DNA of 45,611 nucleotides. It comes from a candidate division TA06 bacterium. GTDB taxonomy: Bacteria; Hydrothermota; DG-26; E44-bin18. Below, piece by piece: positions 630 through 42,759 of the stretch. How positions within the stretch are numbered: position 1 is the stretch's first letter; each line of letters opens with the position of its first letter. The position numbers and the translations under genes were made by a program. Location: NCBI GenBank assembly GCA_004376575.1, contig SOJN01000074.1, positions 1 through 45,611 on the forward strand. The letters are read 5' to 3'. The notes under the pieces are model-generated. The model saw only the letters and a list, made by a program, of their open reading frames with translations, did no database searches and was not told the origin of the DNA.

Positions 630-1706
630 ATGTTCAGGAGAGCTGCAGTAGGCCTATATCTCAGGTTCACGGGGCCTTTCCTGAGAAGACATAAAATACC
701 ATTCACGGATGTCTTGAAGAACGCTGAGCGGATTCTCATTCGTCCGCCCTCTGGGCCGGGTGAGCTCCTCTTTTCTCTTCCTACTATAGAAACGATCAAG
801 CGCAACTACCCTGATTCCGAGGTGAGCCTTCTCATTCCTGAGCGCAAGATCGAACTGGTGACTGGGACAGCGCTTGCAGACCGTATTATCGTGTACAGTG
901 AACCACTGGTCCCATTCGGTAGCAAGTTCAGGGACCTGAAGAAGGGTTTGAGAAAGCTCCGCTTTGACCTATATCTGGATCTGAACAGACCCGGGGATCA
1001 AGACCGGAGGCTTCTTGCATCACTTGGAGCAGCCAAGGTGAGGATTGGCAATAGTAACGGCAGGGATTTTCCGTATCTGAACTGGGAGGTGAGGCCTTCG
1101 GGCCACGAGAGGGATGAGGTGAACAGAAACCTTTCTATGCTCTCATGGATTGATGAATCGAAGCGGGTGTTGATGCACCCTGACGGGCGCTTCGTCGGCG
1201 TTGCCGACAGACTGTGGCTGGAGGACTTCCTTCTGTCTCGTTCTTGGGTCCAAGATGAGAAACGTGTGATAGTAGATCTTACAATCCCCGGGACGAGAAG
1301 AGGATGGGGTACAGAGAGTCTGGTCGATATTCTCAAGGGGCTGGAACAGCTTTGCAGTCCCAGGCTGTTTGTCATTCCTCCGCCGGACTATGAGACGAAG
1401 AAAGGGTTTTTTGACTTGAGCAAGCATGTAACCAGGCAGGTCATACTCTTTAATGAGCCAGTTTCACGCATAACATCTTTGATGGAAAAATCCAATCTGA
1501 TTTTGTCCTCAAAAAGTGACCTCTTCTCTCTTGGTTTTGCTCTTGGTATCCCGTGCATTCTACTGATACCTGAAGACGAAAAATTCTATCCACCAGAGGC
1601 TGAGTGGGTCAGAATCTTCAGACTCAAGAGGGGCAAGAAGGTCCCCTCTGGGGAGATAGTGGGGGCTGCCGCAGGTCTCCTGGAGAAAGAGAGAAGTGCA
1701 CAGTAG
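630..1706 (+). CDS. Glycosyltransferase family 9-like protein (heptosyltransferase-related)
   Basis: The 358-aa product has the layout of GT9 enzymes, which add heptose or related sugars to LPS core on the cytoplasmic side of the inner membrane. The N-terminal RILIRPPSGPGELLFSLP segment (about residues 35-52) matches the family's nucleotide-sugar fold start, with Glu where Asp is common (GPGE for GxGD). A second Rossmann-like half follows from about residue 190 (RVIVDLTIPGTRRGWG) with an SDLFSLGFALGIP segment near the C-terminus, the usual place for donor-binding residues. The ATG has AAGGAG at 621-626. Its end overlaps the ABC exporter start by 11 nt, suggesting joint expression and a role in LPS or another surface glycan. 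The sugar donor cannot be read from the sequence. Confidence 0.7.
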   Translation: MFRRAAVGLYLRFTGPFLRRHKIPFTDVLKNAERILIRPPSGPGELLFSLPTIETIKRNYPDSEVSLLIPERKIELVTGTALADRIIVYSEPLVPFGSKFRDLKKGLRKLRFDLYLDLNRPGDQDRRLLASLGAAKVRIGNSNGRDFPYLNWEVRPSGHERDEVNRNLSMLSWIDESKRVLMHPDGRFVGVADRLWLEDFLLSRSWVQDEKRVIVDLTIPGTRRGWGTESLVDILKGLEQLCSPRLFVIPPPDYETKKGFFDLSKHVTRQVILFNEPVSRITSLMEKSNLILSSKSDLFSLGFALGIPCILLIPEDEKFYPPEAEWVRIFRLKRGKKVPSGEIVGAAAGLLEKERSAQ

Positions 1707-4686
1707 GCTCTTCGCATACATAAAGCCATATCGAAAGCAACTCACCCTGTCAGTTCTGTGTATGGGTTTTCTGGCCTTGTCCAGTGGGCTTTCTCTGGGC
1801 ATGATAATCCCTCTGGTTAATGCCCTTTTCAGGGGAGGCGAGGTCGAAATCTCAATAGGGCACACAGGCCTTGGATGGATACTCGACAGGATAAACGTCT
1901 GGTTAGCTTCTGCTCCGCCGATGGTAACGCTTGGGCGGCTGGCTGCTCTGATAGCCCTGGTCTACTTCTTCAAAGGGTTGTTCACATACCTTCAGAGATA
2001 CTTCTCAGTGGTGGTAGAACAGGGGACAGTCAGGGACTTAAGAGAAGCCATATATAGACACCTGCACACCCTATCTCTCAGTTTCTTTCACACGCAGAGA
2101 ACAGGCGTTCTCACATCAAGGATAACCAACGATGTCGTCTTCATACAGGGTGCTATTGACAAGGGATTCATTGCCCTGATCAGGGAATCTCTGCTTGTTC
2201 TCGTCTATGTGGCGATCGTCATATGGGCCTCCTGGAAACTGGCAATAGTCGCAATATTGATTGTGCCGCTGTCCACATGGATGATAATCCTTCTGGGTAG
2301 GAGGCTGAGGAGCAGCAGTCACAGCGTTCAGGAGGCGACCGGAAGCATCGCTTCCACCCTGACAGAGACGATCTCTGGTATGAGGGTCGTCAAAGCATTC
2401 TCCATGGAAAACTTTGAGATAGGCAAATTCGTGTCCCAGATCTGGGATTACTATAGAGCTTTCCTGAGATTTGAAAGAGTCAGCATGCTTGCCGGGCCCA
2501 TGACTGAGTTTCTGGGCGTGATCGCCGCGTGCATCATACTCATATATGGTGGGTACCAAATTCTCATCATAGGAGAGTTAACTCCAGATAGATTCATACT
2601 ATTCCTTGCCGCTTCCCTTTCTCTGATGCAGCCCATAAAGAGGATAAGTCAGGCGAATACCCAGATACAACAAGGTCTGGCCGCTTCCTCCCGAGTCTTC
2701 AGAGTCCTTGATGTTATGCCAGAGGTGCGGGAGGTCAAGGACCCCGTCACGGTCGAATCTTTCCGAGATTCAATAGTGTTTGATGGAGTCTCTTTTGGAT
2801 ACGAAAGCAATAGGACGATCCTGAACGACATTAATCTCCGGATAGGAGTTGGCGAAGTCGTCGCGCTGGTAGGACCGTCCGGCGCAGGAAAGTCAACCAT
2901 CGCTGACCTTGTGCCGAGATTCTATGATTCCACTGAGGGAAAGGTGACTATTGACGGTATTGACCTGAGAAAGGCCAGGGTGGCCAGCCTCAGGAACCTG
3001 ATGGGTATCGTCACACAGGAGACGATCCTTTTTAACGACACAGTGAGAAACAACATAGCTTACGGTCGGACAGATGCCAGCATGGACGATGTGGTGCTTG
3101 CCGCGACGGCAGCAAACATTCACGATTTCATAACAACTCTTCCAAAGGGCTACGACACTCTTATTGGCGAGAGAGGGGTGAGACTCTCTGGAGGCGAAAG
3201 ACAGAGGATCGCAATTGCGAGAGCAATATTGAAGAATCCGCCTATATTGATACTTGACGAGGCCACCTCATCTCTTGATACCGAATCTGAGATGCTGGTT
3301 CAGGAAGCCCTGGGGAGATTGATGGAAGGCAGGACTTCGCTCGTAATAGCTCACAGGCTGTCCACGGTCAGGCGGGCAGACAGAATAGTCGTGGTCAAGG
3401 ATGGAAAGATAGTTGAGGTTGGCACCCATCAATCTCTCCTTTCCAATGAAGGAACCTACAAACGTTTGTACGACCTGCAGTTCAAGGACATGAGCGGTGA
3501 AACGTATCCGGATACCAGCAAGAAGCCTGTTCTCTCACATTCTGTTGCAGTGAAACGACCGGCTGAGGATGCCGAACAGAAAGTTGACGTTAGAAAGCCC
3601 AAGCATGTGACTGGAGGAAAGAGGAGCTCGAACAAAGACATGGCTGTGCTCGAGCCCACAAGTTCGGATCTCATGCACAGGCTTGATGAAGACAAGAGGG
3701 CGAGGGCGGAGCTGGCTGCGCTTGAGCAGCTGACTGTGGCAATGCAGTCATCTCTCAACCTTCAACAGATCCTGAATGAGGCCGTAAAGATAGTCAGGAA
3801 GAAGTTCTCCTACCTGAACATTGCAGTACTGCTTCTCCAGGATGATGGGTCGCTGAGAATCGCGGCCCATGAAGGGTACAAAGATCTGGATATACCTCGC
3901 GCCGAGAGTAAGCTGGCAAGCAAAGGAGGAATAACCTGGCAGGCCTTGAAGGCGTGCAAACCCGTTGTAGTCAGGGATACTGCAAGTGAACCCCTCTATG
4001 TTGGCTCCAGAGAGAAGCTGAAGTCAGAGATTGCCGTGCCGCTGAGGGTGAAGAAGAGGCTTGTTGGCGTCCTGGACGTTGAAAAGGAAGGGCGGGGCTC
4101 TCTGGGGAGGAGAGATGTAAGGCTTCTGCGCCTGATTGCTTCAAGAATCGCTCTTGCTGCTGAGAACGCAAGACTCTATCAAGAAAAAGAGAGGCTTGCC
4201 GTTACTGATGACTTGACAGGCATATACAACTACCGTTTGTTCAGGGAAAGGCTCGTACAAGAGGTCAAAAGGGCCAGGAAAGAGAAGAGCAAACTGTCAC
4301 TCTTGATGCTGGATGTGGACGACTTCAAACGCCACAATGATATGTTTGGCCACCTTGGCGGAGATCAGCTCCTGCGTGAGCTGGCAGTGCTTTTAAGGTC
4401 GAATGTGAGGAAAAGAGGATTGGTCACGAGATATGGCGGGGACGAGTTCATGATTATTCTTCCTCAATGCAACAAAGAAAAGGCGCTTTTGGTTGGCGAG
4501 AGAGTGAGAAAAGCCGTTGAGGAGTATTCAGGTCTTGAGGATGGTCCCCCAGGGAGCAAATTCACAATAAGCGTGGGCGTTGCCACCTACCCGGCTGATG
4601 CCTCGGACGGAGAAGAGCTTGTGGGCAAGGCGGATAAGGCATTGTACCGTGCCAAGCAGGGCGGCAAGAACAGGATATCAACATGA
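1696..4686 (+). CDS. MsbA-type ABC exporter fused to GAF and GGDEF (diguanylate cyclase) domains
   Basis: This 996-aa protein joins two systems in one frame. Residues 1 to about 300 are a six-helix type I ABC exporter transmembrane domain. An ABC ATPase follows, with Walker A GPSGAGKST (393-401), signature LSGGE (about 497), Walker B ILILDEATS (about 517-525) and an H-loop His in VIAHRLS (about 550), as in MsbA lipid A flippases of about 580 aa. After a charged linker (590-670) come a GAF domain (about 685-820) and a GGDEF domain (832-996) with intact RYGGDEF at about 912-918. The position of the RxxD inhibitory site reads RKRG, so canonical product inhibition is probably missing. The start is GTG, inside the GT9 gene; the stop overlaps the kinase ATG. 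Exporter and cyclase identities are firm. Their coupling, and lipid A as substrate, are inferred. Confidence 0.88.
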   Translation: MHSRLFAYIKPYRKQLTLSVLCMGFLALSSGLSLGMIIPLVNALFRGGEVEISIGHTGLGWILDRINVWLASAPPMVTLGRLAALIALVYFFKGLFTYLQRYFSVVVEQGTVRDLREAIYRHLHTLSLSFFHTQRTGVLTSRITNDVVFIQGAIDKGFIALIRESLLVLVYVAIVIWASWKLAIVAILIVPLSTWMIILLGRRLRSSSHSVQEATGSIASTLTETISGMRVVKAFSMENFEIGKFVSQIWDYYRAFLRFERVSMLAGPMTEFLGVIAACIILIYGGYQILIIGELTPDRFILFLAASLSLMQPIKRISQANTQIQQGLAASSRVFRVLDVMPEVREVKDPVTVESFRDSIVFDGVSFGYESNRTILNDINLRIGVGEVVALVGPSGAGKSTIADLVPRFYDSTEGKVTIDGIDLRKARVASLRNLMGIVTQETILFNDTVRNNIAYGRTDASMDDVVLAATAANIHDFITTLPKGYDTLIGERGVRLSGGERQRIAIARAILKNPPILILDEATSSLDTESEMLVQEALGRLMEGRTSLVIAHRLSTVRRADRIVVVKDGKIVEVGTHQSLLSNEGTYKRLYDLQFKDMSGETYPDTSKKPVLSHSVAVKRPAEDAEQKVDVRKPKHVTGGKRSSNKDMAVLEPTSSDLMHRLDEDKRARAELAALEQLTVAMQSSLNLQQILNEAVKIVRKKFSYLNIAVLLLQDDGSLRIAAHEGYKDLDIPRAESKLASKGGITWQALKACKPVVVRDTASEPLYVGSREKLKSEIAVPLRVKKRLVGVLDVEKEGRGSLGRRDVRLLRLIASRIALAAENARLYQEKERLAVTDDLTGIYNYRLFRERLVQEVKRARKEKSKLSLLMLDVDDFKRHNDMFGHLGGDQLLRELAVLLRSNVRKRGLVTRYGGDEFMIILPQCNKEKALLVGERVRKAVEEYSGLEDGPPGSKFTISVGVATYPADASDGEELVGKADKALYRAKQGGKNRIST

Positions 4687-5930
4687 TCAGACTTCCGGGA
4701 AGATCCAGGACAGCCTTCAAGAACTACATCTTTCTGGGCGCTCTCGTAATCGCTCTTGGGTCCTTCTTCTATACACAGAGCCTGGTGAGAAGGCTTGAAG
4801 ATGCCTCAAAGACGATCACCAAGATGTTTGCCGAGTTCTACGCGAAGATGAGCCTTCCGGCTACTGCAACTTCATCTGTGGAAACCGGGATATTCTTTGA
4901 ACAGATAGTGATGAAGATTACTTTCCCGGTCATTTTTACTGATGAGCGTGGCGTGCCCACTGCATGGAGGAACATAGGAATAAGCCCGGATGTCATATCC
5001 AGAGAAGAACTTGCGGCGGTCGATCCGGAAAACCCTCCCAGGGTTCTGGAGAGGGTATTCAATACGATAACAAAACTCGATTCTGAGCATGAACCCATAC
5101 CCATGAATTTTGGCCGCCGCGTGGTTGGCTATGTCCATTACGGTGAGTCAAGAGCTGTGAGGGAGTTGAGATGGGCACCGATCATCCAGCTTGTTGTCAT
5201 TGCCCTTTTTGTCATTGTGGGGTTTTTGGGGTTCAAGGCCATCAGGGTCGCCGAGGAGAATTTCATCTGGGCTGGTATGGCAAAGGAGACCGCACACCAG
5301 TTGGGGACGCCCATATCTTCGCTCTTGGGTTGGCTCGAGGCGCTCAAGGATTCCGGGAAGAGGAAGACAAAAGAGGAGATCATTTCTGAGATGGGGAGAG
5401 ACCTGGCTAGATTAGAGTCAGTCACCTCCAGGTTCAACAGGATAGGTTCGCCTCCCAGGTTTGAAAGGAAAGACCTTACAGGCATGCTTTCCGAGACTGC
5501 CGATTATTTCAGGCTGAGGCTACCCAAACACGGGAAGAGGATTGAAATAGTGGAGCATCATGAACCTATTCCTGAGGTCGATGTCGATGAGGAACTCTTC
5601 TGCTGGGCGATTGAGAATCTTGTCAGGAACTCGCTTGACGCGATTGCAGGTGGTTCAGGGAAGATAGAAATCTCGGCCGGGTGTTCGTCTTCGGAGCCGG
5701 CTGTTGAGATAAGGGTAAGAGACAACGGCAGAGGGATGAGCCGGGATGAGAAGAGGAGGGCCTTCATGCCCGGATATACAACCAAGAAGTTCGGCTGGGG
5801 CCTGGGGCTTCCTCTTGCAAAGAGAATCATAGAGAACTATCATGGTGGCCGGCTGTTGATTGAATCGAGCCAGCCCGGCAAAGGGACGTGTTTTCTCATA
5901 CGGATGCGGACCCAAGGGAACATAAGGTGA
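4683..5930 (+). CDS. Membrane sensor histidine kinase, PorY-like
   Basis: The 415-aa protein is a two-transmembrane sensor kinase (segments about 14-32 and 165-188) with a periplasmic region of roughly 130 residues between them. The phosphoacceptor H-box AKETAHQLGTPISSL places the histidine at residue 205. The N-box NLVRNSLDAI (about 312-321), G-box VRDNGRGM and the GLGLPLAKRII segment complete the HATPase domain. Its ATG overlaps the exporter-GGDEF stop (ATGA), and its own stop overlaps the GTG of the REC-PglZ gene, which makes that protein the likely partner. The arrangement resembles PorY next to PorX, which is encoded apart from PorY in Bacteroidetes type IX secretion systems. The periplasmic ligand is unknown. 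Confidence 0.85.
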   Translation: MIRLPGRSRTAFKNYIFLGALVIALGSFFYTQSLVRRLEDASKTITKMFAEFYAKMSLPATATSSVETGIFFEQIVMKITFPVIFTDERGVPTAWRNIGISPDVISREELAAVDPENPPRVLERVFNTITKLDSEHEPIPMNFGRRVVGYVHYGESRAVRELRWAPIIQLVVIALFVIVGFLGFKAIRVAEENFIWAGMAKETAHQLGTPISSLLGWLEALKDSGKRKTKEEIISEMGRDLARLESVTSRFNRIGSPPRFERKDLTGMLSETADYFRLRLPKHGKRIEIVEHHEPIPEVDVDEELFCWAIENLVRNSLDAIAGGSGKIEISAGCSSSEPAVEIRVRDNGRGMSRDEKRRAFMPGYTTKKFGWGLGLPLAKRIIENYHGGRLLIESSQPGKGTCFLIRMRTQGNIR

Positions 5931-7477
5931 AGAAGTCAGGAAAGAGAATTCTCTGGGTTGACGATGAGATTGAAGCTCTGAGCTCTCATGTCTACCTCCT
6001 GGAGGGAAGAGGGTATGAGGTGTCCACTGCAACGAACGGTGACGACGGTGTATCTCTGTTGAGGTCCGAATCGTTTGACCTGATTCTCCTTGATCAAATG
6101 ATGCCAGGCATGGATGGGATTACGACTCTAGCAGAGCTGAGGAGGCTCGACTCCAACGTGCCCATAGTGATGGTGACCAAGAGCGAAGAAGAGAGCCTCA
6201 TGGATGAAGCATTTGGCAGGGACGTTGCCGATTTCCTGGTGAAGCCAATAAATCCGCGCCAGTTGATATCCACCTGCAAGAGAATCCTGGAGAAACGGCA
6301 TATGATTGAGGAAAGGATGCCGCAGGACTATGCTTCAGACTTCAATAAGATTTCACAGATGAGGCTTTCAAGTCCTGACTGGAGTGACTGGGTGGACATA
6401 TACTCGAGGCTTTGTGAGTGGGATGTATGGATGGACAGGTTCAAGGATGAGGGGCTTGGCAAAACCCATGCCGGCCAGAAGAAAGACTGTAACAGTGATT
6501 TCTGTAAATATGTTTCCTCAGAGTATACTTCCTGGGTATTGGGTAAAGAAGGGCCTCTTCTTTCACCACATATCTTCAAGGAGCATGTATTTCCTAGATT
6601 GAGAAAGAACCGGCAGGTAGTGTTCCTGCTTCTGGACTGTATGAGGCTGGACCAGTATCTTTCTATCGAACCTCTCCTGAAGCAAAGTTTCAACATAAAG
6701 AGGAATTTCTACTACTCCATTCTTCCCAGCGCGACTCCTTATGCCAGGAACGCAATCTTCAGTGGTCTGTTTCCCGTGGAGATGTCCAGGCATCATCCTC
6801 AGTTCTGGAGCACCAAAGGAGAAGGGAGTCAGAACAGGTATGAACGAGAGTTTCTTGAACTCGCACTGAAGAAGGAGATGGTGAGGCCCCGAGGGTTTGA
6901 ATATGTCAAAGTCCTGAGCGCCAAGGATACAGAGAAACTCGCCGAAAATCTGCCGCATCTTCTGAACAATCAGCTTCTTTGCATTGTCGTCAATTTTGTG
7001 GACATTCTCACCCACTACCGATCCGAGTCGACAGTGGTCACGCAGATGACTGCTGATGAGGACGCATTGAGGTCCTTCACACATACATGGTTTGCCAGAA
7101 GCCGGATATATGAACTGCTTGGACGGATTGCCAGGAAAGATGTAGATGTGATACTAACGTCCGACCACGGTTCGATTCAGGGCGAACGGCCGTGCACCAT
7201 TTATGGCGGAAGGGAGATCTCCTCCAATTTGAGATACAAGTTCGGCAGTTCGATAAGGTGTGACGAGAAACAGGCCTTAGTGATAAAGGATCCCGTTGAG
7301 TATATGCTTCCGACAGACGTTCCAAACAAGCGGTACTGCATAGCAAAGGAAGACTACTACTTTGTATACCCGACACACTACCAGCGGTACGTAAAGCAAT
7401 ACAGAGGGACTTTCCAGCACGGCGGAATATCAATGGAGGAAATGATATTGCCTGTCTGCACTCTCACTTCGGAATAG
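5927..7477 (+). CDS. porX: PorX-like response regulator with PglZ (alkaline-phosphatase-fold) domain
   Basis: I chose the GTG at 5927 (AAGGGA at 5914-5919), giving 516 aa. Residues 1-125 are a receiver domain with Asp-Asp at VDDE, phosphoacceptor D56 in LILLDQMMPG and the conserved Lys in VKPIN. The rest is a PglZ domain of the alkaline phosphatase superfamily: candidate metal/nucleophile residues are D237 (LDCMRLD), T270 (SATPYAR), D413-H414 (TSDHGS) and H498 (QHGGIS). This is the layout of PorX, which controls type IX secretion in Bacteroidetes and has been reported to hydrolyse oligoribonucleotides. No type IX secretion gene is in this window. The kinase gene overlaps it upstream, so phosphorylation by that kinase is likely. 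The substrate is inferred from the family. Confidence 0.82.
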   Translation: MKKSGKRILWVDDEIEALSSHVYLLEGRGYEVSTATNGDDGVSLLRSESFDLILLDQMMPGMDGITTLAELRRLDSNVPIVMVTKSEEESLMDEAFGRDVADFLVKPINPRQLISTCKRILEKRHMIEERMPQDYASDFNKISQMRLSSPDWSDWVDIYSRLCEWDVWMDRFKDEGLGKTHAGQKKDCNSDFCKYVSSEYTSWVLGKEGPLLSPHIFKEHVFPRLRKNRQVVFLLLDCMRLDQYLSIEPLLKQSFNIKRNFYYSILPSATPYARNAIFSGLFPVEMSRHHPQFWSTKGEGSQNRYEREFLELALKKEMVRPRGFEYVKVLSAKDTEKLAENLPHLLNNQLLCIVVNFVDILTHYRSESTVVTQMTADEDALRSFTHTWFARSRIYELLGRIARKDVDVILTSDHGSIQGERPCTIYGGREISSNLRYKFGSSIRCDEKQALVIKDPVEYMLPTDVPNKRYCIAKEDYYFVYPTHYQRYVKQYRGTFQHGGISMEEMILPVCTLTSE

Positions 7478-33008: not shown

Positions 33009-33539
33009 TTGCTCTGTGACTCTTGCAAAAAAAGGGTGGCGACTGTACATTATACAGAGGTAGTTGGAGGGAACGTTACTGACCTTCATCTCTGTGCCGA
33101 GTGTGCGGACAGGAAGGGGCTGGTTAAGCCGCTCTCTAAGTCCAAATTCGTGGTTGCTGATTTTCTGGCAGGGCTTGCAGAAGGTCTGGATGCAGATGAG
33201 CTTGAGAAAGAGACTCAGATTCGGTGCAAAACCTGTAACCTTTCCTATGCTGAATTCAGGAGGGGTGGAAAGCTCGGGTGTGCGGACTGCTACCCTTCAT
33301 TTGCTGGCAGACTTGACCCACTTCTACGAAGAATCCACGGTTCAACTAGACACGCAGGTAAGCTCATCCTTAAGACTGGAGCCAAGGCTGAGCTTAAGAG
33401 GGAACTTGCCGGTATTCAGAAGAGACTTGAAGCTGCCATTCGTGACGAGAACTTCGAGGATGCTGCCAGCCTACGAGATAGGATGAGAGCAATTCACGAG
33501 AGCCTGGGTTCTAAGGACACTGATGATGCCAAATCCTAG
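33009..33539 (+). CDS. mcsA: Protein-arginine kinase activator McsA
   Basis: The TTG at 33009 is 8 nt after GAGGAGGG (32993-33000) and gives the expected N-terminus LLCDSCKKR in a 176-aa protein. Four CxxC pairs (CDSC, CAEC, CKTC, CADC) form two treble-clef zinc sites, and a UVR domain (LKRELAGIQKRLEAAIRDENFEDAA in two parts) sits at the C-terminus. McsA binds and activates the kinase McsB. The end overlaps the mcsB start by 17 nt. In Firmicutes this gene follows ctsR; here no ctsR is seen and lolD precedes it. Confidence 0.92.
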   Translation: MLCDSCKKRVATVHYTEVVGGNVTDLHLCAECADRKGLVKPLSKSKFVVADFLAGLAEGLDADELEKETQIRCKTCNLSYAEFRRGGKLGCADCYPSFAGRLDPLLRRIHGSTRHAGKLILKTGAKAELKRELAGIQKRLEAAIRDENFEDAASLRDRMRAIHESLGSKDTDDAKS

Positions 33540-34581
33540 AATTGATGGTCTGGTGGGGGTTGGTTCAAAGTGGCTCGAGGCCACGGGCCCGTTTTCAGAG
33601 ATAGTCCTATCCAGCCGGGTGAGACTTGCCAGAAACCTGTCGAGTTTCCCCTTTGTTCACCGGGCAAGAGTGAAGGACCTCAAGGAGATCATTTCCAGGT
33701 GCAAGTCTGCCGCAGACGCGACTTCTCACCTGAAGGACGGCTTCTACGTCGATGTGAAAAGGCTTTTGCCTGTGGACCTCCAGTTTCTTGTCGAAAGGCA
33801 TTTGATAAGCCTGGAGATGGCGGGTGATGGAAAGAGCAGAGGTCTGATAGTGGGCCATGGTGAGGTCTTGAGCCTTATGATTAATGAGGAGGACCACCTG
33901 AGGCTACAGGCTTTTGCATCTGGCCTGCAGGTTGAGAGGGCATATGAACTGGCCAGTGACTTGGATGATGCTTTAGAGAGTAGACTGGATTACGCCTTCT
34001 CGGAGAAGTGGGGTTTCCTCACGGCTTGCCCCACCAATACCGGTACCGGGTTGAGAGTTTCGGTTCTGATTCATCTTCCTGGTCTCGTCCTCACCAAAGA
34101 CATAGACAAAGTCTTGAGGGGAGTGAGCCAGGTTGGCCTCGCGGTGAGAGGTTTCTATGGCGAGGGGAGCGAAGTAGAAGGTAACTTCTTTCAGGTGTCA
34201 AACCAGACGACTCTGGGAAAGAGTGAGGAAGACATAATAAGTGGTTTGAACAAGGTGGCAAAACAGATCATAGAATACGAGAGGAACGCGAGGGAGATGC
34301 TCGTGGCGAGTGCCAGGCTTGAGGTAGAAGACAAAATCTGGCGGGCTTTTGGGATCTTGGCGAATGCGAGAACTCTAACCTCTGATGAGATAATAAACCT
34401 GTGCTCAGCGGTCAGATTGGGGGTAGGCTTGGGAGTCATGAGGTCTGTGAGCACCAAGGATTTGAATGAGCTTCTGGTGCTGACTCAGCCGGCCCACCTT
34501 CAAAAGATATTCGACAGCGAGATGGAACCGCAGGAAAGGGATGTAAGAAGAGCTGAATACGTCAGAAACAAGCTTTCTTGA
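33523..34581 (+). CDS. mcsB: Protein arginine kinase McsB
   Basis: The 352-aa guanido-kinase-fold enzyme phosphorylates arginines on proteins, marking them for ClpC-ClpP. SSRVRLARNL, the catalytic NEEDHLRLQ, CPTNTGTGLRVSV and the EGNFFQVSNQTTLGKSEEDI loop are conserved. RDVRRA at 339-344 is the allosteric phosphoarginine-binding RDxxRA motif known from Bacillus McsB. ATG at 33523 or 33526 is possible. It lies between its activator mcsA and its target unfoldase clpC. Confidence 0.94.
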   Translation: MMPNPRIDGLVGVGSKWLEATGPFSEIVLSSRVRLARNLSSFPFVHRARVKDLKEIISRCKSAADATSHLKDGFYVDVKRLLPVDLQFLVERHLISLEMAGDGKSRGLIVGHGEVLSLMINEEDHLRLQAFASGLQVERAYELASDLDDALESRLDYAFSEKWGFLTACPTNTGTGLRVSVLIHLPGLVLTKDIDKVLRGVSQVGLAVRGFYGEGSEVEGNFFQVSNQTTLGKSEEDIISGLNKVAKQIIEYERNAREMLVASARLEVEDKIWRAFGILANARTLTSDEIINLCSAVRLGVGLGVMRSVSTKDLNELLVLTQPAHLQKIFDSEMEPQERDVRRAEYVRNKLS

Positions 34582-34602
34582 ATGGTGACTGGAGGTTAAG
34601 AT

Positions 34603-37086
34603 ATGGAAGAGAGGTTCAGTGAGCGGGTTAGAAGAGTTATGTACCTCTCCAGAGAAGAGGCTGTCAGGCTACAGCACGACTATATAGGCACCGAGCACAT
34701 TCTACTTGGACTGATAAGAGAAGGAACAGGGGTCGCTGCCATGGTTCTTACCAACTTAGGGCTGGACCTCGAATCTGTTCGGCAGGCGGTCGAGGACTCT
34801 GTGGAAGCCGGCGGCTCAACCATGACAATTGGAGAAATCCCCTTAAACCAGAGCGCCAAGAAGGCCCTGGAGCTTGCTGTGGAGGAGGCTAAGACCCTCG
34901 GGCACAACTACGTAGGCACAGAGCATCTTCTCCTTGGCCTGCTGAGAGAGAAGCATGGGGTTGCAGCAGGTGTCCTTTCCAGTCTGGGAGTGGACCTCGA
35001 GGCTGTCAGGAAAGAGGTGTTGAGGCTTCTAGGAGGTACATTTGAAGCATTCCAACCCCCGAAATCAAAGAAGAGCAAGACCCCCGCTCTTGACTTCTTC
35101 TGCAGGGACCTTACCAAACTTGCAGAGGAGGGGAAGCTTGACCCCATAATCGGTAGAGAGGGGGAGATTGAAAGGGTCGTTCAGATATTGAGCAGGAGAA
35201 AAAAGAACAACCCCGTTCTCATAGGAGAACCAGGAGTTGGGAAGACCGCTATTGTGGAGGGGTTGGCCCAGAAGATCATCGCAGGAAGTGTACCTGATGC
35301 ACTCCTTGATAAGAGGGTTCTGGCTCTGGACATGGCTGCTGTTGTCGCGGGCACAAAGTACAGAGGGCAGTTTGAGGAGAGGCTCAAGGCGGTTCTTAAC
35401 GAGATAAAGACAGCATCCAACGTTGTCATATTCATAGATGAGCTTCATACCATCGTTGGTGCCGGCGCTGCCGAAGGGGCTATTGACGCCAGCAATATGC
35501 TCAAGCCCTCACTGGCTCGAGGTGAGGTCCAGTGTATAGGGGCAACAACCATGGAAGAGTACAGGAAACACATTGAGAAAGATGGCGCTCTGGAGAGAAG
35601 GTTCCAGACTATAGTTGTAGAGTCACCTTCAGTCGATGAGACTATTGAAATCCTTCAAGGGTTGCGCGAGAAGTACGAGGTGCACCACAGGGTGAAGTAC
35701 ACAGAGGCAGCACTCGTGGCCTCCTCAAGACTGTCTGACAGGTACATATCTGACAGGTATCTTCCTGACAAAGCCATAGACGTGATTGACGAAGCGGGCT
35801 CAAGGGTGAAGCTACGCAGGTATCCTTCTTCACCTGATTTCAAGGAAGAAGAGAAGAAACTGGATGACCTGAAAAGGAAGAAGGAGGAGGCGATTTCCAA
35901 CCAGGACTTTGAGGCGGCAGCGAAGTACAGGGACGAGCAGAAGAACGCTGAGGCAAGAATAGAGAAGATGAAGAAGGAGTGGGGAAAGAAGCTGAAACTT
36001 GAGATTGGTGAGGTTACTGAGGAAGATGTGAGGCAGGTGATATCCATGTGGACAGGTGTCCCTCTTGTGAAGCTGGAAGAGAAGGAGCAGGAGAGGTTGC
36101 TTCGCATGGAGTCAGAGCTAAGGAAAAGAGTTGTTGGCCAGGATGAAGCCCTGAAAGTCATATCGAGGGCGATCAGGAGAGGCCGTGCAGGCTTGACGGA
36201 CCCCAGACGTCCCATAGGATCGTTCATATTCCTTGGACCGACCGGGGTGGGGAAGACTGAGCTGGCAAAAACTCTGGCATCCTTTCTGTTCAGCGATGAA
36301 AATGCACTGGTAAGAGTGGACATGAGCGAATACATGGAGAAGTTTTCTGTTTCAAGACTGATAGGTGCTCCTCCCGGATACGTAGGATATGACGAGGGGG
36401 GACAGCTGACGGAAAAGGTGAGGAGGAAGCCCTACAGCGTAATTCTTCTGGATGAGATTGAGAAAGCACATCCGGATGTGTTCAATATACTTCTACAGAT
36501 TCTTGAAGATGGGCAGTTAACAGACTCCTTCGGCAGGAAGGTGAACTTCAAAAACTCTGTCCTGATCATGACTTCCAACATTGGTGCAAGGCAGATCAGG
36601 AAGGGCGTCACGCTAGGGTTCGGGAAAGCCGATGAGGCGGAAACATACGAGAAGATGAAGAAGATGCTTCTGGCAGAGTTGAAGAGAACCTTCAATCCTG
36701 AGTTCCTTAACAGAATCGATGAGACAGTCATATTCAGGACACTTGGCAGAGTGGAGATGAAGCTTATTGTTGACATTCTATTCAACGAGGTCAGGTCGAG
36801 AGTGAGAGAGAAAGCTCTTGACCTCGTTCTAGCTGATGATGCGAAGGAGCTCCTTATTGATGAGGGTTTTGATCCAACCTATGGCGCAAGGCCACTAAGG
36901 AGAGCGATCCAGAAACTTCTGGAGGACCCTCTATCTGAACAAATATTGAGGGGCAAGCTGGTTGTAAACATGAGTGTTTACATCACCAGAGGAGAGGGGG
37001 GCAAGCTTAAGTTCGAATCGGTCTGCAAGGAAGAGATGGCCGCGACGGATGCGGACAGACTCGGCAGGCTGGGCGAGAACCACTGA
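34603..37086 (+). CDS. clpC: ATP-dependent unfoldase ClpC
   Basis: The 827-aa double-AAA+ unfoldase has two Clp-N repeats, each with the GTEH motif whose Glu (E31 and E107) corresponds to the phosphoarginine-docking residues of Bacillus ClpC. NBD1 has Walker [11 protein letters not shown] middle domain with a UVR-like segment ([16 protein letters not shown]) follows, and NBD2 has Walker [15 protein letters not shown] sits upstream of the ATG. It feeds substrates to ClpP, which is not in this window. A strong terminator follows. Confidence 0.95.
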
Positions 37087-40473: not shown

Positions 40474-41516
40474 AACTGAAAGAGATGGCTCATATTCTGG
40501 ACGGGAAGCTTCGGGGCGACCCTGATGCCGATGTGGTTTCGGTTGCTCCGATTGATAGTGCGGGAGAAGGTGTACTTGCGTTTGCTGCTTCAGAGCAGTA
40601 CCTCAAAACCGCCGAGCGTTCAGGAGCGTCATGCATAATAGTGCCCAAAGGCTTTCATGTGGAAGGCAAGAACCTCATAGAGGTGGAGAACCCGAGGTTG
40701 GCTCTGGCAAAGGCGATGGAGGTTCTCTACAAACGCGAGAGGATAGGCCCTGGGATAGAAGAGGGAGCCCATGTGGCCGAGACGGCGCGGGTAGCCCCGT
40801 CCTCACACATTGCCACACTTGCATACATCGGTGATGATACCAGGGTTGGTGATAGGACTGTCATCTACCCTTTTGCCTACATAGGCCCGGATGCAGAGAT
40901 AGGGTCAGACTGTGTGATACATCCAAATGTTACCATCTGTTCAGGTGTGATCCTGGGTGACAGAGTTGTGGTTCATGCCAACGCGGTGCTGGGCTCTGAT
41001 GGTTTTGGCTATGCACGGGATGGAGTTGGCCACAGAAAGATACCCCAGGTGGGTACAGTCGTTGTTGAGGACGATGTTGAGATAGGTGCCAACACTGCAA
41101 TAGACAGGGCTACAATGGGTAGGACCCGTATTGGCAGGGGGACAAAGATAGACAATCTGGTGCACATAGCGCACAATGTGACGATTGGTTCAAACTGCCT
41201 TGTTGTTGCCCAGGCGGGAATCGCAGGTTCGACTGAGATAGGCGAAAATGTCCTAATCGGTGGACAGGCTGGCTTGGTGCACCACATAAAGATCGGGAGC
41301 AGGGCTTTCATAGGTGCACAGGCCGGTGTGACCAGGTCCTTTCCAGCAGATTCGAAAATATCAGGCTATCCAGCCAGGGACCACAACAGGTCAATGAGAG
41401 GCTATGCCGCGCTGAACAAACTCCCTTCGCTGATCAAGAAGGTGGACAAAATTGACAAAAGGATTGAGAAACTGGAGCAAAAAGGTGGAAAGACCTCAGA
41501 AGACGATAGCAGGTGA
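40470..41516 (+). CDS. lpxD: UDP-3-O-acylglucosamine N-acyltransferase
   Basis: The 348-aa enzyme adds the second acyl chain in lipid A synthesis. An N-terminal substrate domain (about 1-100) precedes left-handed beta-helix hexapeptide repeats and the catalytic HNVTIG region with [21 protein letters not shown] before it. A short C-terminal helix ([14 protein letters not shown]) is typical. It overlaps skp upstream by 4 nt and lpxC downstream by 32 nt. Confidence 0.95.
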
Positions 41517-42759
41517 GACAGCCTGTTCCGGGATTGGCCTTCACAGCGGCAAGACCTCTGAAGTGCGATTTCTTCCAGCGAAACCGGACAAAGGCATAGT
41601 ATTCAAGAGGACAGACTTAAAGGGTTCTCCAAGTTTGAAACCCACTCTGGACAGTGTCAACTATACCATCCATCAGACTTCTATTAGAGAAGGTGACACC
41701 GAGGTTTTGACTGTCGAGCACCTCCTTTGCGCCGCCTACGGGATGGAGATCGACAATATGATTGTCGAGATAAATGGCCCTGAGATCCCCATAATGGACG
41801 GAAGCGCCAAACCCTTCATGGAGGCATTCAACAATGCTGGCGTGGTTGATCAAAAAAACAGCTGCAGCCCGAAGACGCTCCAGCATCCTGTCAAATATGA
41901 GAAAGACGGAGTGTGCATAGCAGCACTCCCTTCGGACTCTCTTACCATAACGTTCGGTATTCAATATGATCATCCGCATCTGCTCAGCCAATACGCGCGC
42001 TTCGAGATAACCCCTGAAGTCTTCCAGAACGAACTGGCACCCGCTCGCACCTACAGTTTTGATGAATGGGTTAAGCCACTGAGAAAAAAGGGTCTCATCA
42101 AGGGCGGTAGTCTTGAAAATGCAATCTTGATCGGTGAAAATGGTTTGGTCAACAAAGAGCCTCTCAGGTTCAAAGATGAGTTCGCCAGGCATAAGATAGC
42201 CGATATGATTGGGAACATTGCAATGTTGGGTTATCCTTTACACGCGGATATTTATGCTTTCAAGTCCGGGCATCTTCACAATGTTCAGTTTCTGAAGAAG
42301 TTGAGAAAGGAGGTCGGTGGATTGAAACCAGCCTTTGAAATAGCAGACATTCTCAAGATAATGCCTCATCGCTACCCATTTCTCCTTGTGGACAGAATAC
42401 TTGAGCTCGAAGAAAACAGGGTCGTGGGGACCAAGAATGTGACAATTAACGAGCCTTTCTTTGCGGGTCATTTTCCAGGACATCCGATCATGCCGGGCGT
42501 TCTTATCGTGGAGTCGATGGCGCAGGTTGGTGGTTTCTTGCTTCTGCACAAGGTTGATCAATCGGACGGAAAAATTGTTTATTTCACCAAAATAGCGGAT
42601 GTGAAGTTTAGAAAGCCAGTCACGCCTGGTGATCAACTCAGGTCTGTTGTGACTTTGGTTAAGTATAAGAAGAACCTTTGTGTTATTAAAGGTCAGGCCT
42701 TTGTGGGCAGAGACCTTGTTTGTGAAGGCACACTCACTGCAATGATGGTTGATAAATGA
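41485..42759 (+). CDS. lpxC/fabZ: Fused LpxC deacetylase and FabZ dehydratase
   Basis: The first about 275 residues are LpxC, the zinc deacetylase that commits to lipid A: zinc ligands H79 (TVEHLL), H236 and D240 (RHKIADMIG), and KSGHLHN near the end. From about 285 comes FabZ, the 3-hydroxyacyl-ACP dehydratase, with [12 protein letters not shown] and [24 protein letters not shown] 41485 with GGAG at 41474-41477 gives 424 aa; an upstream TTG at 41452 is less likely. Such fusions are known in Bacteroidetes/Chlorobi-type genomes. Joining them may balance fatty acid and lipid A synthesis. Confidence 0.94.

Follow-up and report, generated by a model that had tools for sequence, protein, structure and literature searches.

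Results

The window analysed here is a stretch of 45,611 nucleotides (positions 1 to 45,611 of the forward strand of contig SOJN01000074.1) from a candidate division TA06 bacterium (Hydrothermota; assembly GCA_004376575.1), in which one open reading frame (ORF) joins an ATP-binding cassette (ABC) exporter to a diguanylate cyclase. The frame runs from a GTG codon at 1696 to a TGA at 4686 with zero internal stops, and its GTG start agrees with the exporter starts in relatives (MYLRL... in genomes G012 and G007). All four Pfam matches lie well over cut-off:

1696..4686, + strand: fused ORF, 996 amino acids (aa), GTG start; MsbA-type ABC exporter, linker, GAF and GGDEF
1924..2634, + strand: ABC_membrane, residues 77-313 (Pfam, 147 bits)
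2821..3270, + strand: ABC_tran ATPase, residues 376-525 (Pfam, 111 bits), with the H-loop after it at 3349-3363
3487..3660, + strand: linker predicted to be disordered, residues 598-655 (about 58), replacing the first GAF of orthologues
3661..3750, + strand: helix before the GAF, residues 656-685; similarity to stand-alone cyclases starts about here
3754..4158, + strand: GAF (GAF_2), residues 687-821 (Pfam, 60 bits), equivalent to the second GAF of orthologues
4198..4674, + strand: GGDEF diguanylate cyclase domain, residues 835-993 (Pfam, 160 bits), active site RYGGDEF

The fused frame is present in the assembly, as described by a first-pass annotation made from the sequence alone, and we infer that it yields a single polypeptide in the cell. 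That annotation also held the combination to be undescribed, and our literature search found no description of an ABC exporter with a GGDEF cyclase. If the fusion is true, it would be, as far as the literature shows, the first case of a diguanylate cyclase borne covalently on an ABC exporter, with second-messenger synthesis physically tied to a lipid exporter.

The exporter and cyclase halves

The ATPase motifs are intact (Walker A GPSGAGKS, residues 393-400; LSGGE, 497-501; Walker B ILILDEATS, 517-525; H-loop AHRLS, 552-556), and the full-length structural model is closest to MsbA structures, with 36% identity to PDB 9bd6. The best NCBIfam match is MsbA_lipidA (TIGR02203) at 534.5 bits, below the equivalog cut-off of 602. 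The earlier description of an MsbA-type exporter is supported. Relatives in G012 (548 bits) and G002 (546 bits) are likewise under 602, and four other scored exporters of this genome reach 416-470 bits, lower than the fused exporter. By profile score, the exporter half is MsbA-type rather than a certified MsbA. An LpxC match in the window (41497-42306, 309 bits) indicates that the host probably makes lipid A, so a lipid A exporter is expected. As a separate observation, LpxC occupies the first part of a 435-aa ORF (41452-42759) whose C-terminal 150 or so residues may be FabZ; LpxC-FabZ fusion is known elsewhere.

The cyclase half has canonical catalytic residues (RYGGDEF, 912-918; LDVDDFK, 872-878; NDMFGHLGGD, 881-890), which bears out the intact active site reported earlier. 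An Asp stands at the equivalent of PleD Asp344, as in ordinary c-di-GMP synthases, and the product would be cyclic di-GMP (c-di-GMP), judging from these residues. The inhibitory I-site RxxD, a motif common but not required in GGDEF diguanylate cyclases, has no Asp in the fused cyclase (RKRG, within 4405-4449 of the window) or in that of the sister genome G001 (VDEG, locus L118). Among the other cyclases listed, RxxD is kept in nearly all and its Asp in all, the loss being confined to these two proteins; it predicts a cyclase free of product inhibition. All nine related cyclases scanned by Pfam carry a further GAF upstream of the GGDEF-proximal one. In the alignment, the fused protein is without that first GAF and the linker stands at its place.

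No similarity between the linker and the first GAF was detected, and we rejected a remnant of that domain as its source. In the fused frame, and in no other, the linker has coding-like codon usage, at a level attained by 0 of 2000 shuffles; this by itself does not tell a fusion from the N-terminus of a free cyclase. A separate model of residues 599-996 (mean predicted local distance difference test score, pLDDT, 82) comprises 51 disordered residues, a helix, the GAF, a long signalling helix and the GGDEF domain; from the helix onwards it is mostly confident and resembles PDB 5llw and 4zmu. We used this model for the GAF-GGDEF part, where the full-length model is poor, with zero aligned rows. 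The full-length model also gives residues of about 598-655 as disordered, pLDDT there being mostly below 50.

Exporter and cyclase genes in relatives

When 147 genomes of the phylum were queried with the cyclase half, 42 had a good match, and a frame of more than 820 residues was found only in this genome. The 820-aa frame of G096 was considered as a second fusion and rejected, since Pfam gives GAF and GGDEF but no ABC domain. In GTDB, no locus of the 80 with the closest exporters runs more than 60 residues beyond the exporter end or shows a GGDEF motif within the next 3 kb of available sequence (for 69 of the 80, the downstream sequence extends over at least 1.5 kb). Locus L113, matched to residue 827, was also discarded, as the gene after its exporter is a separate one of 234 aa and GAF type, not a cyclase. 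The fused frame is thus found in one genome in 147 and at no locus in 80, and a conserved ABC-GGDEF family is not borne out; the search did not extend to fusions of unrelated exporters and cyclases in other phyla.

Comparison within the class covers two other genomes, G001 (same order) and G002 (same class). The first-pass annotation had named two genes with a stop near 3500 in sister genomes as what would refute its reading, and in G001 the exporter does stop at the equivalent of about 3500; roughly 90 bases further on, a GAF-GAF-GGDEF gene of 493 residues begins. An apparent 1213-aa open frame there was rejected as a second fusion on account of that stop and of more stops before the cyclase. 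In G002 the two genes lie on different contigs. They are split in two further genomes, more distant within the phylum: G018 has adjacent exporter and cyclase genes with a 14-base overlap, and in G022 (locus L129, 6546-9739) a divergent exporter, a 560-aa frame of about 31% identity, forms an ATGA overlap at its end with a GAF-GAF-GGDEF gene. The latter gene has a hydrophobic N-terminus and represents another, unfused exporter-cyclase pairing. In G012 and G007 the exporter immediately precedes the histidine kinase, with no cyclase between.

A conserved operon with a histidine kinase and PorX

The fused gene lies in a run of overlapping genes on the same strand:

630..1706, + strand: heptosyltransferase-like gene, upstream (weak NCBIfam match), with an 11-base overlap with the exporter start
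4683..5930, + strand: membrane histidine kinase (HK), with an ATGA overlap with the fused gene
5888..7477, + strand: PorX, a response regulator with a PglZ phosphodiesterase domain (NF052313, profile match from 5945)

The heptosyltransferase-like gene also precedes the exporter in G001, G012, G007 and G018. PorX is an equivalog-level match (NF052313, 639 bits against a cut-off of 300; Pfam Response_reg and PglZ) and is present in 112 of the 147 genomes. At least 14 genomes, drawn from seven families, directly show the order GGDEF-HK-PorX, and in several of them HPPK, a deoxynucleoside kinase (dNK) and PanC come after it:

Genomes with GGDEF-HK-PorX: G000 (this genome), G001, G013, G019, G025, G035, G045, G030, G050, G096, G097, G099, G108, G109
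Loci with GGDEF-HK-PorX: window 4198-7477; L118, L130, L131, L171, L175, L183, L220, L221, L230, L231

At these loci the cyclases of G097, G099, G108 and G109 were matched by their C-terminal part only. G018, from an eighth family, fits but is split between contigs, with GGDEF-HK on one and HK-PorX on another, and other families have only HK-PorX or PorX alone at the sampled loci. In G001 the whole order GT-ABC-GGDEF-HK-PorX-HPPK-dNK-PanC (GT, glycosyltransferase) is the same as at the fused locus, and we rejected a chimeric contig on this ground.

The type IX secretion tail (Por_Secre_tail) gives more than 80 hits in the genome, which also has eight HD_5 domains, of the HD-GYP type, that could degrade c-di-GMP. 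A crystal structure of the PorX of Porphyromonas gingivalis contains pGpG, and this protein reportedly hydrolyses pApA as well as oligoadenylates, both cyclic and linear; that of Flavobacterium johnsoniae has phosphodiesterase activity (PMC10951265, PMC11320123); c-di-GMP and pGpG are cleaved by a BREX PglZ (PMC12205998). A literature search found nothing joining PorX with a diguanylate cyclase, or PglZ with GGDEF and a histidine kinase. The natural messenger of the PorX PglZ domain is unsettled in the literature, and with a cyclase encoded next to PorX in several families, a guanine dinucleotide becomes a candidate open to direct testing; on this genomic context, it is plausible that such a signal is read or cleared by PorX. 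The kinase and PorX, absent from the earlier reading, are a better clue to function than the fusion, and the conserved cyclase-kinase-PorX operon merits more attention than the fusion itself.

Elsewhere in the window, at 33523-37086, a match to the ATP:guanido phosphotransferase domain, as in a McsB-like arginine kinase, precedes an ORF of 827 aa, a candidate ClpC.

Discussion

The best explanation of the locus, to which we give a probability of roughly 55% as a whole, is a lineage-specific fusion in which the cyclase is tethered to the exporter dimer within a PorX-linked signalling unit. The fusion would have arisen from two adjacent operon genes, an MsbA-type exporter and a GAF-GAF-GGDEF cyclase, with the exporter stop lost by deletion or a small indel and the cyclase left without its first GAF; a deletion reaching from the exporter stop through the spacer and over the first GAF would yield the observed layout. 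The product would most likely be a membrane-anchored cyclase borne on the exporter homodimer, in which the linker of about 58 disordered residues would let the two C-terminal coiled coil-GAF-GGDEF arms pair unaided, so that the ABC part would supply location and dimer stoichiometry but no mechanical stroke. Cyclase activity would be set by the GAF domain, and the missing I-site Asp would lift product inhibition. The messenger would belong to one signalling unit with the histidine kinase and PorX encoded downstream, and either the messenger itself or what it breaks down to would be the substrate of the PorX PglZ phosphodiesterase. The frame, its domains and motifs, the operon and the separate genes of relatives are observed; c-di-GMP as product, the tethering role and the link to PorX are inferred. 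That all nine related cyclases have the extra GAF absent here favours a real lineage-specific fusion, and we consider the fusion probably genuine but private to this lineage.

Several findings weigh against this explanation. The fusion occurs in one genome only, a 150-contig assembly, and an ATGA (3490..3493, + strand) lies exactly at the natural exporter end, where it may be a relic, or a misread, of a four-base stop/start overlap and leaves room for a one-base assembly error; the same junction is an ATGA in G022 and a 14-base overlap in G018. As regards the signalling unit, G002, another member of the class, has a cyclase but no PorX was found in it (G002:C52, locus L170, where the cyclase lies beside HPPK and dNK and an HK match is absent), which argues against strict dependence. 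Searches of the genome for PilZ and EAL domains found none, and with them no candidate receiver of c-di-GMP. A more far-reaching proposal we think rather improbable: that cyclase, kinase and PorX form a conserved nucleotide-signalling module controlling the envelope or type IX secretion in this phylum, in which PglZ senses or removes c-di-GMP or pGpG and, in this lineage, the joining of the cyclase to the lipid A exporter ties messenger synthesis to outer-membrane building.

An assembly or sequencing indel is the alternative that survives best, and we regard it as unlikely. The exporter would end in ...LQF[K/R]T with the TGA at 3491-3493, which comes into frame with one base fewer upstream; an extra base at 3480-3489 would have joined it to a separate cyclase gene of 398 aa whose ATG at 3490 overlaps that TGA. 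The ATGA is located where nearly all homologous exporters terminate (two KSB1 exporters end in QFRT and that of G001 in QFRTMLT), the equivalent junctions of G022 and G018 also overlap, and the following junction at 4683-4686 is likewise an ATGA. However, the window has an in-frame ATGA about every 133 codons, giving a chance of about 17% within 24 codons, and many homologues end in QF[KRS]D, a pattern that the in-frame K597-D598 continues, which suggests a correct frame as far as base 3489. The error rate also appears low, as full-length domain matches were obtained for the conserved genes scanned in other parts of the window, and an indel leaves the absence of the first GAF unexplained.

Somewhat less probable still is a dual product, in which the fusion is made but an internal start, at ATG 3490 or at ATG 3640 behind GGAGGAAAGAGGAG, also yields a soluble GAF-GGDEF protein, and this free cyclase carries most of the signalling. 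Candidate starts exist, a purine-rich stretch lies 13 bases ahead of ATG 3640 and the cyclase is a separate protein in relatives; against this, that stretch lies rather far from ATG 3640, and no properly spaced Shine-Dalgarno sequence precedes ATG 3490.

Very improbable, finally, is the mechanism favoured by the first-pass annotation, in which ATPase movement unites the cyclase halves and lipid export directly gates c-di-GMP synthesis: both modules do lie in one frame, and MsbA and GGDEF proteins are both established to act as homodimers, but residues 598-655 are predicted to be disordered and long enough to uncouple movement, the pre-GAF helix can pair the arms alone and the two are separate proteins in relatives. 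GGDEF proteins normally dimerise via their own coiled coil. Since a long disordered tether transmits no rigid stroke, we favour co-localisation on the exporter dimer, and tethering of the cyclase to an MsbA-like dimer appears likelier than mechanical coupling of ATPase and cyclase. Overall, the earlier interpretation is partly supported.

Comparison with known systems

The exporter half aligns end to end with the MsbA lipid A flippase (TIGR02203; PDB 9bd6, 6bpl), but it scores under the equivalog cut-off and adds a C-terminal linker-GAF-GGDEF extension, and its substrate is only predicted. The cyclase half is like GAF-GGDEF and other sensor-regulated cyclases (DcsBis, 4zmu; the phytochrome-regulated 5llw) in fold and catalytic residues, whereas its N-terminal partner is an ABC exporter and the I-site Asp is gone. 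The closest counterpart is the split operon of the sister genome G001, which shares the gene order and has identities of 53% for the exporter, 42-45% for the cyclase, 52% for the histidine kinase and 54% for PorX, but keeps two genes with a stop and a gap between them and retains the first GAF. The locus also recalls the PorX/PorY system of type IX secretion in its PorX equivalog, its adjoining histidine kinase and the many Por_Secre_tail domains of the genome; it differs in that a diguanylate cyclase is encoded alongside, and the neighbouring kinase is at most a candidate PorY.

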